IMG/VR virus record: IMGVR_UViG_3300045925_000050
Location: 1-47,904 of that record
Source: a virus
Direction: 5' to 3' (one strand)
Length of the DNA stretch: 47,904 nucleotides
In this document: positions 4,899 to 22,988 of the stretch, piece after piece
Position numbering within the stretch: position 1 is the stretch's first letter
Layout of the letters: every line of letters starts with the position of its first letter
Made by a program: the position numbers and the translations under genes
Notes under the pieces: generated by a model
Databases searched by the model: none
What the model saw: the letters and a program-made list of their open reading frames with translations, nothing else
Told to the model about the DNA's origin: nothing

Positions 4899-5984
4899 AT
4901 GGCACACTTTTGGGAAAGCGGTTTCGTAGTGCGCGAGCAAGCATGGCACGGCCTCGCCACTGTTCTCGACAAGGCCCCGACGACTGCGGAAGCTCTCCGA
5001 CAGTCGCAACTAGACTGGCACGTCAACTTGACGCCAGTGTTCGCGATGCCGGGCATGGCCCCCGAGCTCGCGGAAAAGAACGGCATCGCAGCCGCTCCGC
5101 TCTCCGATGCGCTCTACTGCGATGAAGCTCGCGCGATGGTCCGCGAGATCCACCAAAAGGACGGAACCCTGCGTTCCGACGTGTTGGGCATGGTCGGCAC
5201 GCGATACTGCCCGCTTCAGAACACCGACGCTTTCCGTTGGTTCGATCCCTTGTGCGCCGATGGCTCAGTGGAGCTCGAAAGCGCGGGCTCAGTGAAGGGC
5301 GGTCGCCACGTTTGGATCCTGGCACGCATCGCCACGAAGCCGCTACAGGTCGGACGCAAGCCGGAAGACGTGGCAACGCCCTACTTGCTGCTGTCGAACT
5401 CGCACGATGGCTCGCGCGCAGTGACGGTCGCGTTCACCCCCATTCGCGTTGTGTGTTGGAACACACTGTCCGCAGCCAACCGACAAGCGGACAAGCGTGG
5501 AGCCAGCTCGCGCAAGGTGCGGCACACTTCGGCCGCAGCCAACACGCTCGCGGGTGTCCGCGAGACGATTAGCCTAGAGGCCCGGAACTTCGAAGCTAAG
5601 GCCCTACTGTGGCGCGAGCTCGCAAAGACAGATCTGGCTCGCCCCTACAGCCAAGAGCTCGCGCGGCAAGTCGCGCGTTACGCTCGCATCGTGTTCGGCT
5701 CGCCGGCCACGGTCGCGAAACACAAGGCAGAAGGCACGCTTGCGGAGCTTCCGGAAGTGCGCGCAGAGTCGCACCTATGGGAGCTCGTGCACAAGGGGCC
5801 AGGGGCCGATTCCGCGGGTGTCTCGCCGTTCGGCCTCTACATGGCTGCGACGCACTACAGCGACCACTTCAACGGACACACTGCCGAGACGCGACTGGCT
5901 TCGACGTGGTTCGGTGCAGGTGCGCAAGTGCGCGAGCGTGCCGAAGCTGAAGCCCTTGAGCTCGCGGGCATGGGGGCGGCATGA
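4899..5984 (+). CDS. DUF932 phage/plasmid-like protein
   Basis: The protein has 361 residues from the ATG at 4899 (MAHFWESGFVVREQAWHGLA). The opening, the block VLGMVGTRYCPLQNTDAFRW, the segment YLLLSNSHDGSRAVTVAFT and IRVVCWNTLSAA are typical of the DUF932 (TIGR03299) family found in phages and plasmids. Family members are widespread in early gene clusters but their biochemical role is not established. About 90 bp separate it from the previous gene, without a strong ribosome site. The next gene starts in an ATGA overlap. Confidence 0.88.
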   Translation: MAHFWESGFVVREQAWHGLATVLDKAPTTAEALRQSQLDWHVNLTPVFAMPGMAPELAEKNGIAAAPLSDALYCDEARAMVREIHQKDGTLRSDVLGMVGTRYCPLQNTDAFRWFDPLCADGSVELESAGSVKGGRHVWILARIATKPLQVGRKPEDVATPYLLLSNSHDGSRAVTVAFTPIRVVCWNTLSAANRQADKRGASSRKVRHTSAAANTLAGVRETISLEARNFEAKALLWRELAKTDLARPYSQELARQVARYARIVFGSPATVAKHKAEGTLAELPEVRAESHLWELVHKGPGADSAGVSPFGLYMAATHYSDHFNGHTAETRLASTWFGAGAQVRERAEAEALELAGMGAA

Positions 5985-17089: not shown

Positions 17090-17364
17090 CGCATCATCTT
17101 AGGCACGTTCAGGTCAGGATTGCCAGCCCTGAGCGACTCCACGAAGATCTCGAAGTCCTTCTTGGACATGAACTCGCTGCCTAGACCGTCCAGCTTGCGC
17201 TCCAGCCGGGTCAGCGTTTCGCCCTGAACGTCCTGGTTGCTCAGAATGCGCTGGTAGGCAAGACCGACCCAAAACGCGCCGACCACGAAGGAGCACAGGC
17301 CGGCAACGGCCACGCCAACGGGGATCCAGGTCTTGTCCGGGGTGAGTTTGGTCTCGGATCTCAT
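17086..17364 (-). CDS. Membrane protein with coiled coil (holin candidate), 92 aa
   Basis: A transmembrane segment near residues 14-37 (WIPVGVAVAGLCSFVVGAFW) precedes a charged coiled-coil-like region (ETLTRLERKLDGLGSEFM). The ATG overlaps the stop of the polyvalent-protein gene. A one-segment membrane protein with a cytoplasmic or periplasmic coiled coil, at the end of the late block and paired with a second tiny membrane protein, fits a holin-like pair. No endolysin is recognisable nearby, so this stays a candidate. Confidence 0.75.
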   Translation of the reverse strand: MRSETKLTPDKTWIPVGVAVAGLCSFVVGAFWVGLAYQRILSNQDVQGETLTRLERKLDGLGSEFMSKKDFEIFVESLRAGNPDLNVPKMMR

Positions 17365-20300
17365 CGCTGCTGCCTCGATTTCTCTACGAGTGGACGAGCC
17401 AGTTCGTAGCTTCTCTTTTCGGCTTCTTCACGGGAGATCTCGCCGGCTCTCTGTCGTTTGCGGAGATCCGAGATGTGCCGCTTGGCCGTGTCCACCTGGG
17501 CCTTGAGCCCCTTCTCCCAGCCGGCCAGGGTCTCCTCGTTCTGCTCCAGCCTGACGCTCAGGTCGTAGAGCTTGTCCACGAAGTCCGACTGGCCGTGCTC
17601 GGTCTGCTTGAAGAACCGCACGAACGGGTTGACTGCGATGCCGGGGTGATCCTTGAGACCAGCGAGCTCGTCGATCGCACGCATGCCGGCGATGCCGGCT
17701 CCAGCGGTGTAGCCGCCCGTGAGCTGCTCGATCTGGATCGGCGTGAGCAGGCCGCCGATCGCCTTGGACATGACCTTGGCAGTCTCGGTCGTGTAGAAGG
17801 TCGATTGCTCGCTGCGCGGCATTCCACGCTCGATCCACTCCGGCGTGAGCGGGCGGCCAGTGAAGAAGTTGTGCCCCGTTGCCACTTCGAGGATTGGCTT
17901 CAGGATCGTGGGGATCATGTTGCCGACTTCGAGGTAGGGACCGGCGAGGGAGGCCAAGGCCGACTTCATCTGCGCTGGGTTCTTGCCGAACATGCGGTCT
18001 GCCCAAAGCTGCGGGATGCCGCCGAACAGGACACCTGCCTCGAACGGCGTCGGGATCGAAACGATCTGATCGCCGACCTTGAAGTTCACGTAGCCGAGCT
18101 TCCTCCACTCGGGGAGATCCTGATACCAATCCTCGTCCTTGACCATGGCCCAAATGGCCAGTGTCGGAACCGTGATGTTCGCGATGCCGTTCAGCAAGAT
18201 GCCACGCTGGATGCGAGCCTTCGCTTCATCGCCCTTCGTGTCCACGCCGCCGGCCAGGAGTGCTCCCCACAGCTTCCGCTGACCCTGGAGGCCCGCGTTG
18301 AAGTAGGGGATGAACTGGTTGGCCACGCGCGCCAGGACGCCAGCTCGCGCGAAGTTCACGGTGATCTCGCGGCCAGCTTCGAGCGCACGCAAACGAGCCT
18401 CTTGTTCTGTCCGCCCCTCCGCGATGGCTTCCCGGTAGCCACGTCTGAAAGCATCCATGCGGATGTAGTTCTCCGGGTGCGCGAACCAGTTCTGCACGTT
18501 GTCCGCCCAGGACTTCGTTCGCTGCCACAGGGTCATCTGTTCGCCGATCAGGGACCGCTGACGACCCTCGGTCCAGAACGACGACGACTTGGCCCCGAGC
18601 TCCTCGTAGAGCTCGCGCATCGCTCCGTTGCGGTGATACTCGATCGCCCCCCGGAACAGGGACCACAGGCCGCCGAGCGGCCGGAAATCCCCGTTGCGGT
18701 CGAACAGCGGGGCCGAGAACGCATCGCGGATCATGTTCGCCGCGACGAATGCCGGCTGCACGCCGGTTGCGAAGAACCGGAACAGGTCCCTGGGAGCCTG
18801 AGCCCACTGCAACACGGTCTGCATCGAGCTCGGGAGCTGGGGGAGCTTGTCCACGCCCATCAGGGCTTCGTAGGCCCGTGCGTCCACCTCCATCCATTGC
18901 AGCTTGCCGTTCTGCTCGCGGAGAGCCCGCTGGTCGCCGCCAAGGGCTGTCAGGCGCATGATCTCTTCCTCCGACAGCCTCGGGGTCACGGCAATGATCG
19001 ATCGCTCCCCGGTCGGCACGATCTTCTGGCTGAACAGGGTGATCGTCTGCGGGTCGAGCGCATCGGCTTGCCGTAGGGCGTCGAAGGTCTGCGACAGCGT
19101 GTCCTGGAGCTGGGCCGGGACGTTGGCTCCCTGCTCGATCGCATCCAAGACCCGGTGGAGGGGATGTTCCTTCGGGACGTTCGTGCGGTTCACGACCGAG
19201 GCGAGGCCGCCGGCCTCGTAGCCCATCGCCATCTTGTAGAGCGACTCCATGACCTGATGCTGGTGCGCCTTCGCCACGAGACTGCGCGCCACCTGCTGGA
19301 GCTTCACGAACGGGTCCACCACCTCGGCCTCGATGCCTTCGATGCGCGCGAGTCCGGTGCCGCGCTCGGCGACGCCACGACCTTGGCCGTGCTGCGCTGG
19401 GCCTTCGAGGTGCCGGAAGAACGGGACGTAGATCACATACTTGTCCTTGATCTTCGCGGCATCCTCGTGACTGATGTTGCCGGCCATTGCAACCCAGTCG
19501 ATCAGTGCGTCGGTCCATCGCTTCAGGTTGTGACCGATCTCCACGAAGTCCGGGTGTTGCTCGGTGATCTGCCTGACGGAGTGCGTGAGATCTTCTGGCG
19601 TAAGGCTGATGCTCCGGCCGTGCCGGAAGAGATCCATGTTCCTGATCGCGACCACGTAGTCCTGGAAGTCCTGCTCGCGACCACGCACCGCATCCATGAC
19701 GCTCGCGAGTCCTGGCACGACATCACGCGAGCCTGGGAGCCGGATGCCGCGAAGAACGAAGTGCTCGACGACCTTGTTCACGGTCATACCCAGCGTGTCG
19801 ATCATCCTCGCTGGATCATCCATGATCGTCACGTCCTCGGGCCGGCGACCGATTGCGTTGAGCCAGCGGTCCTGGCTCTGCTTAAGCTGCGCCATGTCGT
19901 CGAGCATCGCCTTGTTCAGAGCGGTGACCGCTCGACGGAAGATGTTCGGTCGTTGCGCCCGCTGCTCTGGTCCGAGTGGCCGCGCTCCGCTGACCTGACT
20001 CTGCCGCAGTCGTCCACGAGCTCCCTGCTGGTTGTAGCGCGAGATGAGACCCTGGATCCGGTAATACTGTTCGCGGAGGTGCTCCTGTCGCGGCTCGGCC
20101 AACCACGACCGCATGAAGCGAGAGAGTGCGGGGACCTGTGCATCGAGTCCGACTTCGCCGAGCAGGTTCCTCGCGTGCCACTCGGCCCAGGTCTCTGCCC
20201 ATCGCAGCCAGCCGGGAAGGTTCTGCGAGTTCGGGTAGTTGGCCAACATCGTGTCCATGTCCCGCCGGATCGCTGCCCCTTCTGGAGAGCGCATCACAGC

Positions 20301-22988
20301 CGCCATCTGGCCGCGAGCTCCGCGACTGAACGCACGACCACCTCCACCGACGATGCGGCGGTGCATCGCGTGCGACCACTCGTGCGAGCCGACCACGATG
20401 TCTCGGCCGCCCTTCACGCGAGCGAGGTTGCCGAAGAGGTTGTAGAAGCCCTCCACGCCGCGCCCGAGCACCTTGCCGAACCGCATCGCCGTCTGAACGA
20501 AGTCGCCACGGTCGCCGCCAAGGCGCGTGGCTGTGCCTGGGATGCGCAATCCCCCGCGCCCCGGCCTGCCGCCCATCGCGGCGAAGATCTCGGCTTGGCT
20601 CGTCCCTTCGACTCCTGGAGTCGGCTCCATCTGCGTCGTCGGGGGCTGCTGGAACGACCCTGGCCCGCTGCGCACGCCGTGCGGTCCTGCTTCTCCAATC
20701 CTCATTTCCGCGCGTGATGGAGCTCCAGATGGCACGCCCGGCACAGCCACCTCACCTCCAGCGGCTTCGCGTAATCGTCGTGATGCATCTGGCTCTTCTT
20801 GTCCCCGCACTGCTCGCAGGGCTTCTTCACCAGCTTTCCGCGACTCAGGTAGACCTTCGCGTAGCTCCGCGCGTTCGCGCGCCGTCTCGCCTCGCCCTTC
20901 AGCGGGTGGTCTCTTCGCCACTTCCGCATCGCCTTCGCGTGGCACTTCAGGCAGTAGCTCTGGTTTCGCCTCGCGTGCAGGTCCCCGCACTTCCAGCATT
21001 TCCGAAGATGTTCCACGTTTGCCTTCCATGGTAACACCTTCCCTGATCTCTCGATACCGTTCCTCGCTGATCCGCCCAGGCTTGACTTCTGTCTCCTTGG
21101 CCTTCGCGAGCTCTTCTTCCACCTCTGCCTTGATGCGCTCACGCTTTGGCAGGAAGCCCTTGGCCACGTAGGGCTTCGCTTCCGGCTTCGCGACTGGAGT
21201 CGGCTCGCCTCGCTGCTCGGGCAGCTTCGCTTGCTCCAAGATCTTCTCCATGTCCGATTCCACGTTCTGCTGCACCTCGCGCCCGCCGAACTCCTCGCGA
21301 TCGAGCTCGCTTTCGAGCTCGCGTTGAGAGCGCAACGCTTCGGCTCGTTCCTCCGGAGGGAGGTTCGGGTCCTTGGCCGCGCGACTCAGTTTGCCGAGCC
21401 GTTCCAGCTTGCCCTTGTCCTTTATCGGCGCTGCGGCCACCTCTTCTTGAGTCGCTTTTCCTTCCGCCATCTTCTCGGCTAGCTGTGCCCTGGCAACCCC
21501 ACGATTGAATGCGGTCATCGCAGATCGATCAGCGTCGGTGAACGTGCGACCCGAGGCCGACTTCACCAGTGCGAACGTCAGCATGTTGCGCAAGAAGATC
21601 TCGGCCGTGCTCTCGTTCGGATTCCTGATGAAGCCCCAGCTCGCCGGCAGAACCTCCGGCATCGCAGTCTCGACGCCGCCGAACCCGAGTCCTTCGAGTG
21701 CTCCCGCGACTGCGCGAGCAGCGAAGCCCGGCATGTGGGCACGGTTCGCAGCGAACCATTCGGTCTTCTTGCCAAGAGCTCCGAGCGTCATCAGCACTGG
21801 CGACATCGCGAGCCCGTGGAGGTAGGCCGCGCCGTAGCCATCGATGCGACCCTGGTTGACGGATTCCAGGGCAGCCCACCCGGCCGCAGTGCCACTCACC
21901 TTGCCCAATGACTCGATGATCTTCAGCGCACGCTTGCTGCTCTCGATGCCCTTCGCTAATCGAAGACCACCGAGTGCCTTCAGCCCCGCCATGGTGAGAG
22001 TGCCGCCACCCTTCACGACCGCTTGCCCGACTGCGCCGAACGCGCCGAACAGCGGTCCCATTCCGAGAAGTTCGCCGCCGCCACGACTCACCGTGTTGAC
22101 GAGTCCACGGAAGCCGGCTCGCGTCGCTTCCTCCCACTGCTGCACGCGCCCGGACTCGGCCACGTCCTTCTCGATGTTCGAGTTCGTCGCGTAGCTCCAC
22201 GCCATCACGAGCCCGTCCATGACCGAGGGGACCTTGCCGGCGTTGAACACACGCTCGCCGCTGTCGTTGTCGATCCAGTTCGTCGGGTAGCTCGGGCCAA
22301 CGTCTGGTCCACCGAGAGCCATGATGCCTCGCCGCCCCAGGTCGTAGATGCCGTGGCTGGCCCAGTTGGCGACGTGCCCGACACCTTCGATTCCCTGCCA
22401 CGCTGCAATCGCCGTCTCCGCGACCGGCCCCATGGAGGGACGCTGTTGCTCGCCGCTCGACATGAACCCGACTTCACCGGGTCCCGACTCACGGTTGAGC
22501 CACTGCGCGTAGTTCGACGTGCGAGGATCACTCCAGAAGTCGAAGCGAGGATCGGCGAGCTTGAGCGCAGGGATCAGCTTGTTCACGACGAGCTGGCGGA
22601 TGTTGGCCACCTCGTTCGGATCCACCATGACAGGCTTCATCTGCTGCATCTGCGCCAAGGCTTCGTTCTCGTCCTTCGGCACCTTGATGACTTGCGACTC
22701 GTTCTGCGTCTTGTAACGCTCGAACACGCCGTCCATGAACGTCCGGACTTCTCCCCAGCCGCTCTGTGGATCAGCGAAGACCGAATTGATCTTCTTGCTG
22801 CGCTCGCGCTCCAGATAGAGCCTGCGCTGGGCTTCCACCTGCCAATACTTCGGCTGACCGAAGGCTGGCGGATCGACCAGCGGATCTCCTCCGTTGAGCT
22901 CGGTGAGTGCCGACCCGTAGGCCGCACGCTTCTGATCGAGCAGGAAATCGGTCTCGGGAAGAAGGCGGCCTGGGTCGGTGCTGCTCAC
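17361..22988 (-). CDS. Large polyvalent (internal virion) protein, 1875 aa
   Basis: The GTG start overlaps the upstream stop (GTGA). Gly/Ala-rich hydrophobic segments occupy about residues 290-440, followed by a long Glu/Arg/Pro-rich, disorder-like linker at about 490-780. A zincin-like HEWSHAMH with H869, E870 and H873 follows. A C-terminal region around residue 1545 (NFARAGVLARVANQFIPYF then NAGLQGQRKLW) matches the LPD38-type domain of phage polyvalent proteins. Such giant proteins are carried in podovirus heads and ejected with the DNA, where they may help the genome across the envelope or act on the host. Residues about 651-763 are read from the same bases as a nested HNH gene. It may also hold a peptidoglycan-degrading part not recognised here. 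Confidence 0.85.
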   Translation of the reverse strand: MSSTDPGRLLPETDFLLDQKRAAYGSALTELNGGDPLVDPPAFGQPKYWQVEAQRRLYLERERSKKINSVFADPQSGWGEVRTFMDGVFERYKTQNESQVIKVPKDENEALAQMQQMKPVMVDPNEVANIRQLVVNKLIPALKLADPRFDFWSDPRTSNYAQWLNRESGPGEVGFMSSGEQQRPSMGPVAETAIAAWQGIEGVGHVANWASHGIYDLGRRGIMALGGPDVGPSYPTNWIDNDSGERVFNAGKVPSVMDGLVMAWSYATNSNIEKDVAESGRVQQWEEATRAGFRGLVNTVSRGGGELLGMGPLFGAFGAVGQAVVKGGGTLTMAGLKALGGLRLAKGIESSKRALKIIESLGKVSGTAAGWAALESVNQGRIDGYGAAYLHGLAMSPVLMTLGALGKKTEWFAANRAHMPGFAARAVAGALEGLGFGGVETAMPEVLPASWGFIRNPNESTAEIFLRNMLTFALVKSASGRTFTDADRSAMTAFNRGVARAQLAEKMAEGKATQEEVAAAPIKDKGKLERLGKLSRAAKDPNLPPEERAEALRSQRELESELDREEFGGREVQQNVESDMEKILEQAKLPEQRGEPTPVAKPEAKPYVAKGFLPKRERIKAEVEEELAKAKETEVKPGRISEERYREIREGVTMEGKRGTSSEMLEVRGPAREAKPELLPEVPREGDAEVAKRPPAEGRGETARERAELREGLPESRKAGEEALRAVRGQEEPDASRRLREAAGGEVAVPGVPSGAPSRAEMRIGEAGPHGVRSGPGSFQQPPTTQMEPTPGVEGTSQAEIFAAMGGRPGRGGLRIPGTATRLGGDRGDFVQTAMRFGKVLGRGVEGFYNLFGNLARVKGGRDIVVGSHEWSHAMHRRIVGGGGRAFSRGARGQMAAVMRSPEGAAIRRDMDTMLANYPNSQNLPGWLRWAETWAEWHARNLLGEVGLDAQVPALSRFMRSWLAEPRQEHLREQYYRIQGLISRYNQQGARGRLRQSQVSGARPLGPEQRAQRPNIFRRAVTALNKAMLDDMAQLKQSQDRWLNAIGRRPEDVTIMDDPARMIDTLGMTVNKVVEHFVLRGIRLPGSRDVVPGLASVMDAVRGREQDFQDYVVAIRNMDLFRHGRSISLTPEDLTHSVRQITEQHPDFVEIGHNLKRWTDALIDWVAMAGNISHEDAAKIKDKYVIYVPFFRHLEGPAQHGQGRGVAERGTGLARIEGIEAEVVDPFVKLQQVARSLVAKAHQHQVMESLYKMAMGYEAGGLASVVNRTNVPKEHPLHRVLDAIEQGANVPAQLQDTLSQTFDALRQADALDPQTITLFSQKIVPTGERSIIAVTPRLSEEEIMRLTALGGDQRALREQNGKLQWMEVDARAYEALMGVDKLPQLPSSMQTVLQWAQAPRDLFRFFATGVQPAFVAANMIRDAFSAPLFDRNGDFRPLGGLWSLFRGAIEYHRNGAMRELYEELGAKSSSFWTEGRQRSLIGEQMTLWQRTKSWADNVQNWFAHPENYIRMDAFRRGYREAIAEGRTEQEARLRALEAGREITVNFARAGVLARVANQFIPYFNAGLQGQRKLWGALLAGGVDTKGDEAKARIQRGILLNGIANITVPTLAIWAMVKDEDWYQDLPEWRKLGYVNFKVGDQIVSIPTPFEAGVLFGGIPQLWADRMFGKNPAQMKSALASLAGPYLEVGNMIPTILKPILEVATGHNFFTGRPLTPEWIERGMPRSEQSTFYTTETAKVMSKAIGGLLTPIQIEQLTGGYTAGAGIAGMRAIDELAGLKDHPGIAVNPFVRFFKQTEHGQSDFVDKLYDLSVRLEQNEETLAGWEKGLKAQVDTAKRHISDLRKRQRAGEISREEAEKRSYELARPLVEKSRQQR
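20702..21037 (-). CDS. HNH endonuclease nested out of frame in the polyvalent-protein gene
   Basis: In another frame of the same strand, inside the 1875-residue ORF, lies a 111-residue HNH protein. From the GTG at 21037: Cys pairs CWKCGD and CLKCH, then C74-x2-C77-G, HHDDYAKPL (H85, H86, D87), VRWLCRACH (C99, C102, H103) and H107. This is the standard phage HNH signature with zinc-binding cysteines. Upstream of the GTG is AGGGAA. The other frame stays open through all 336 bp and becomes the Arg/Glu/Pro-rich linker of the large protein. Either the insertion happened to keep the host frame open, or the two products are made from one mRNA. Confidence 0.85.
   Translation of the reverse strand: MLPWKANVEHLRKCWKCGDLHARRNQSYCLKCHAKAMRKWRRDHPLKGEARRRANARSYAKVYLSRGKLVKKPCEQCGDKKSQMHHDDYAKPLEVRWLCRACHLELHHARK

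Follow-up and report, generated by a model that had tools for sequence, protein, structure and literature searches.

How can a nuclease gene lie inside another phage gene and leave that gene readable? The question was raised by a locus in the viral record IMGVR_UViG_3300045925_000050, of which positions 1 to 47,904 (47,904 nt, here called the window) were analysed. On the minus strand, the gene for a large polyvalent protein of 1875 amino acids (aa) encloses a second open reading frame (ORF), which encodes an HNH endonuclease. The usual view is that a homing gene spares its host gene only by way of an intron, an intein or an intergenic site. We regard it as probable that in this locus a mobile HNH gene, without intron or intein, settled in a linker of the polyvalent protein, that its DNA is read twice with a separate start for the nuclease, and that it spreads by homing.

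An HNH reading frame within a polyvalent-protein gene

The overlapping readings were located as follows.

17361..22988, minus strand: host gene, large polyvalent protein of 1875 aa with a C-terminal LPD38 domain and a zincin-like motif HEWSHAMH
20702..21037, minus strand: HNH endonuclease ORF, GTG start at 21037, TGA at 20704-20702, 111 codons plus TGA
20702..21016, minus strand: alternative shorter HNH reading of 104 aa, GTG at 21016 with GGAAGG 5 nt upstream
20703..21038, minus strand: HNH DNA as read in the host frame (aa 651-762), with 82% disorder-promoting residues and a predicted local distance difference test (pLDDT) of about 30-52
21039..22988, minus strand: host segment upstream of the insert (aa 1-650), shared with relatives
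17361..20702, minus strand: host segment downstream of the insert (aa 763-1875), likewise conserved; the match to the relative L005 starts again at RIGEAGP, at the HNH stop
20703..20705, minus strand: host-frame ATG overlapping the HNH TGA (AATGA), which might permit a coupled restart of the C-terminal part

The HNH frame is shifted by +1 relative to the enclosing ORF and lies wholly inside its limits. It matched the endonuclease family PHROG 2340 (E=1e-13), tblastn gave matches in 421 phage records, and the closest compact HNH proteins in viral contigs were 54-63% identical to it. The N-terminal knuckle has all four zinc cysteines, and the CxxC and the HHDDY...VRWLC...H residues are present, and with them the zinc cysteine pairs and the HHxDY...VxW core by which compact HNH proteins of the PHROG 2340 type were recognised; an alignment of 18 sequences showed that the zinc and HHxDY...W residues were kept. 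The AlphaFold model had a mean pLDDT of 94.8. In VIA-align the model was closest to the HNH nicking endonuclease 4h9d (Z 5.9), and the phage HNH 5h0m scored Z 4.4, both modest values. Foldseek of the model against the PDB yielded no significant match, and a PDB sequence search with the HNH returned only ribosomal and rubredoxin-like zinc proteins. Judged by its sequence, the ORF is an intact compact HNH endonuclease, related to PHROG 2340 by true homology. The phage endonucleases of PHROG 2340 belong to the same sequence family; those homologs read in annotated phages are ordinary separate genes, whereas the HNH gene of the window overlaps its host gene completely. The GTG at 21016 is a second and perhaps the better start, in line with the family starts in the alignment.

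The host protein is a large polyvalent protein by its LPD38 domain (PF18857, E=4e-31). Its frame is free of stop codons across the same 336 bp; thus an HNH ORF lies fully within a host ORF, in another frame, with the host frame open, as in the ShiLan type of insertion considered below. Disorder-promoting residues account for 82% of the insert versus 61% of the remaining host protein. The initial annotation had described an HNH signature in a second frame of the same strand, a large frame that stays open and reads as a linker, and a nuclease gene that sits in its host gene without breaking it; these descriptions were borne out, with active mobility as our inference. Its suggestion that the host gains coding sequence from the nuclease gene also held, since aa 651-762 of the host protein derive from HNH DNA.

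Phage HNH genes often reside in introns, hence a splicing element, either a group I or II intron or an intein with an HNH, had to be considered. The ORF occupies essentially the whole 336-nt insert and leaves no space for a ribozyme; Rfam gave no intron match, including no group I intron core flanking the ORF. Both observations disfavour an intron. The host-frame reading is disordered and had no Pfam intein match. A splicing element is highly improbable, and the insert appears, as in the ShiLan type, to be devoid of self-splicing sequences.

Acquisition in a variable linker and recurrence in other genes

Profile searches with the host protein revealed eight relatives, one per viral contig, the closest of them L005 with 56% identity. 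All eight keep one uninterrupted frame through this region, L010 and L012 being truncated by a contig end. On the left, conservation of the flank extends up to the HNH; on the right it begins again precisely at the HNH stop (RIGEAGPHGVRSGPGSFQQPPT vs RVGDTRTPAGARAGPQSLQAQPT). At the HNH position the relatives carry a variable linker unrelated to the HNH, about 140 aa long in L005 and shorter in L007 and L012. In the linkers of the seven relatives inspected, HNH coding was absent from every frame and no remnants were seen; no HNH match was found elsewhere in any of the eight contigs. Host-protein relatives were not found in bacterial genomes, and the collections searched contained neither a near-identical phage nor another copy at this site.

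The initial annotation had proposed that relatives lacking residues about 651-763 would reveal an insertion. The HNH is indeed missing there in all linker frames, but the residues are not simply missing, because another variable linker takes their place. Neither do the relatives share the same linker without HNH coding: aligned with the linkers of L005, L006, L008, L009, L010 and L011, the host-frame reading scored no better than shuffled sequence, and an HNH as an ancestral part of the linker was rejected. The resemblance to the relatives' linkers is one of composition only. The lack of homology beyond composition, together with the HNH-free relatives, shows that the HNH was acquired, either by replacement or by insertion within a fast-evolving linker. 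The linker looks like a general site of module exchange. In L010 (aa about 825-875) and in the matching part of L011 a GNAT-like acetyltransferase domain was observed in the linker, with a weak Pfam match in one of them.

The arrangement is not restricted to the window. In a set of 136 distinct HNH homologs, four further members were likewise enclosed in long ORFs, and they shared the relative frame of the window HNH.

L029: nested in a giant protein of at least 2417 aa
L157: nested in a protein of 1621 aa
L141: nested in a terminase large subunit, insert of 112 aa
L172: nested in a portal protein

For the terminase, 596 phage records matched the host protein, and those listed matched in two pieces flanking the insert. 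Aligned with its relatives, which carry a short hairpin of variable sequence between WAAVADG and RVIPRG, the terminase has 112 additional residues at this place. Here the host protein has thus gained roughly 100 aa net, and host homologs without the insert are known for the terminase as well as for the window gene, in the latter with a differing linker instead of a bare site. In the portal frame, PHROG 2662 matched to the left and to the right of the insert, and Pfam gave a portal match upstream of it. Searches of viral contigs for relatives of the L029, L157 and L172 hosts found only the proteins themselves. In a tree of 74 homologs, which had low resolution, nested HNH proteins were interspersed with non-nested relatives at three or more distinct positions, suggesting at least three independent origins of the nested arrangement. 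Two candidates were discarded: the 'DNA polymerase III' of Salmonella phage 40 under an HNH match is a small antisense ORF and not a nested case, and L196 (third frame, 70% guanine-cytosine (GC) content) was set aside as likely chance. In the phage contig L023, a tandem pair of distinct HNH genes from the PHROG 2340-type family lies at about 4980-5640.

A sequence motif upstream accompanied these genes. Leaders were defined as the 110 nt upstream of HNH genes (L022, L023, L026, L029, L138, L141, L157, L168, L170, L172 and others).

21009..21017, minus strand: CGTGGAACA, the motif of the family's leaders (GTGGAAC/GTTCCAC); it overlaps the GTG at 21016, a possible start

GTGGAAC or its reverse complement was present in the leader of all five nested elements and was the top 7-mer upstream of the HNH family, occurring in 25 of 117 distinct leaders versus 0.84 expected. 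Sites with at most three mismatches to the parS palindrome TGTTYCACGTGRAACA numbered 14 in the HNH leaders (0.12 expected). A shared, enriched leader motif suggests that leader and ORF travel together as one unit. Possible roles of the motif are a promoter or operator, a homing-site mimic or a ParB-type site. Endonucleases of T4 introns repress themselves through a look-alike of the homing site at their own promoter (PMC2988022), and by analogy the motif may be a homing-site mimic for self-repression. Start signals were found in several nested genes: in L029 and L141 a good ribosome-binding site precedes an ATG, and L172 has at 5880-5970, inside the portal gene and just upstream of the nested HNH start, a perfect TTGACA, a 17-nt spacer and AACTAT. 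A fusion protein made by frameshifting was not supported, as in four nested homologs the HNH frame opens just after a nearby upstream stop; with this stop, the HNH needs its own start.

Codon choice at sites of potential host-frame stops

Is the open host frame a product of chance? A host-frame stop arises only where an HNH codon ending in T precedes a codon starting with AA, AG or GA. In the HNH gene of the window none of the 36 places at risk has a T. The host frame stayed open in about 15-16% of trials when the gene's own synonymous codons were shuffled, and in about 1% after recoding with the codon usage of the phage. Taken alone, the open frame of the window is only moderately surprising, with a chance of 1-16%. 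For the other nested genes, own-codon shuffles left the host frame open far less often: 0.5% for L029, 0.1-0.4% for L141, 0.03-0.04% for L172 and 3% for L157.

Counted over codons that have a T-ending synonym, the five nested HNH genes had T-ending codons at 0 of 104 risk sites versus 88 of 244 (36%) elsewhere in the same genes; because an open host frame was the criterion by which nested cases were chosen, the zero stops are partly selection and the pooled odds are overstated. The other homologs, which serve as an independent control for the codon counts, had T-ending codons at 767 of 2830 risk sites (27%) and at 2185 of 7182 sites elsewhere. In the terminase and the portal protein, the host frame is established, independently of that selection, by homology to either side of the insert. 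The avoidance of T at risk codons prevents stops in the host frame; it is strong in the four other nested genes and modest in the window. The third frame was open in 0 of 20000 shuffles in four of the five genes, which may explain why all nested cases share one frame.

By chance alone, a GC-rich HNH gene might have landed in frame and left the host frame open by luck, the double reading being unselected. The shuffles of the window gene fit such an event, as does the finding that 7 of 121 other homologs likewise lack T-ending codons at all risk sites, a further reason why the pooled odds are overstated. Chance is nevertheless very unlikely as the explanation in view of the low shuffle values of the four other genes and of the number of cases, five in all, of which one has just 45% GC and two have hosts fixed by their two-sided homology.

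The codon pattern bears also on a functional split of the host gene, in which the C-terminal part would be re-initiated at the ATG at 20703-20705, like phage genes split by mob or seg endonucleases. The AATGA overlap at 20702-20705 would suit a restart, and phages of the T4 type have split genes with functional products (PMC2988022). However, nothing forces a division, as the host frame lacks a stop, and the strong avoidance of stops in the other nested host frames would be needless in split genes. We consider a split gene unlikely.

Double coding as a proposed way to persist in coding DNA

The reading that we favour is an HNH gene without intron or intein, lodged in an interdomain linker of the polyvalent-protein gene. 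Ribosomes in the host frame would pass through the insert and add about 112 flexible residues, which would be retained in a whole and functional protein of 1875 aa. Separate initiation at a GTG within the insert would give an HNH of roughly 104-111 aa. When a relative without the insert infects the same cell, the nuclease may nick or cut its copy of the site, and recombination would then copy the gene in (homing). That its other frame yields a flexible linker may be what allows the HNH gene to survive within coding sequence.

Several points weigh against this reading. The ribosome-binding site of the window HNH is only moderate, no sigma-70 promoter was found in 20600-21400 of the window, a bare empty site without linker was not seen for the window gene among the relatives, and a frozen, non-mobile nuclease would look identical. 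The missing promoter and the weak start context, together with the linker-like composition of the host reading, would also suit a relic, that is, a nuclease no longer produced whose DNA is now merely a linker of the polyvalent protein. Yet DNA read solely in the host frame should quickly lose the HNH positions, while this HNH frame is intact at all zinc and catalytic positions and gave a confident model. A relic is quite unlikely.

Out-of-frame HNH insertions have been described in DNA methylases of actinophages, namely the ShiLan domain and Pacc40 gp60 (Arsenault, Gosselin and Gogarten 2025, PMC11855218). The window arrangement is of the same kind: an HNH ORF lies out of frame in a host gene with an open frame, starts with GTG and stops at the insert end, intron and intein are lacking, the host-frame product is disordered and the distribution is patchy. 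The initial annotation was right to call the arrangement unusual, but it is not unprecedented. In contrast to ShiLan, the HNH of the window is a compact protein of about 104-111 aa of the PHROG 2340 type in the +1 frame, and the hosts are polyvalent, terminase and portal genes. New are the different HNH subfamily, the +1 frame, these hosts, the repeated origin and the codon evidence for the host frame; a term search of PMC11855218 found no codon-level test of the host frame. A likeness exists as well to mobE in nrdA of phage Aeh1 and mobA in T4 gene 60, intron-less endonuclease genes within essential phage genes whose function survives; these split the host into two polypeptides, whereas the host frame of the window runs through (PMC2988022).

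It is about an even chance that a compact HNH homing lineage spreads in essential genes (terminase, portal and ejection-type polyvalent proteins) as a dual-coding cassette of ~340 nt with a conserved leader motif of its own, with both frames under selection and a repeated origin; conserved sites would thereby be occupied with neither intron nor intein. The five cases and the frame-preserving codon choice suggest that double coding is a general third route for such genes, extending the methylase examples. For annotators a test follows: where a conserved phage protein has a disordered insert without explanation, a nuclease may be concealed there, and the codon test is applicable to any insert.
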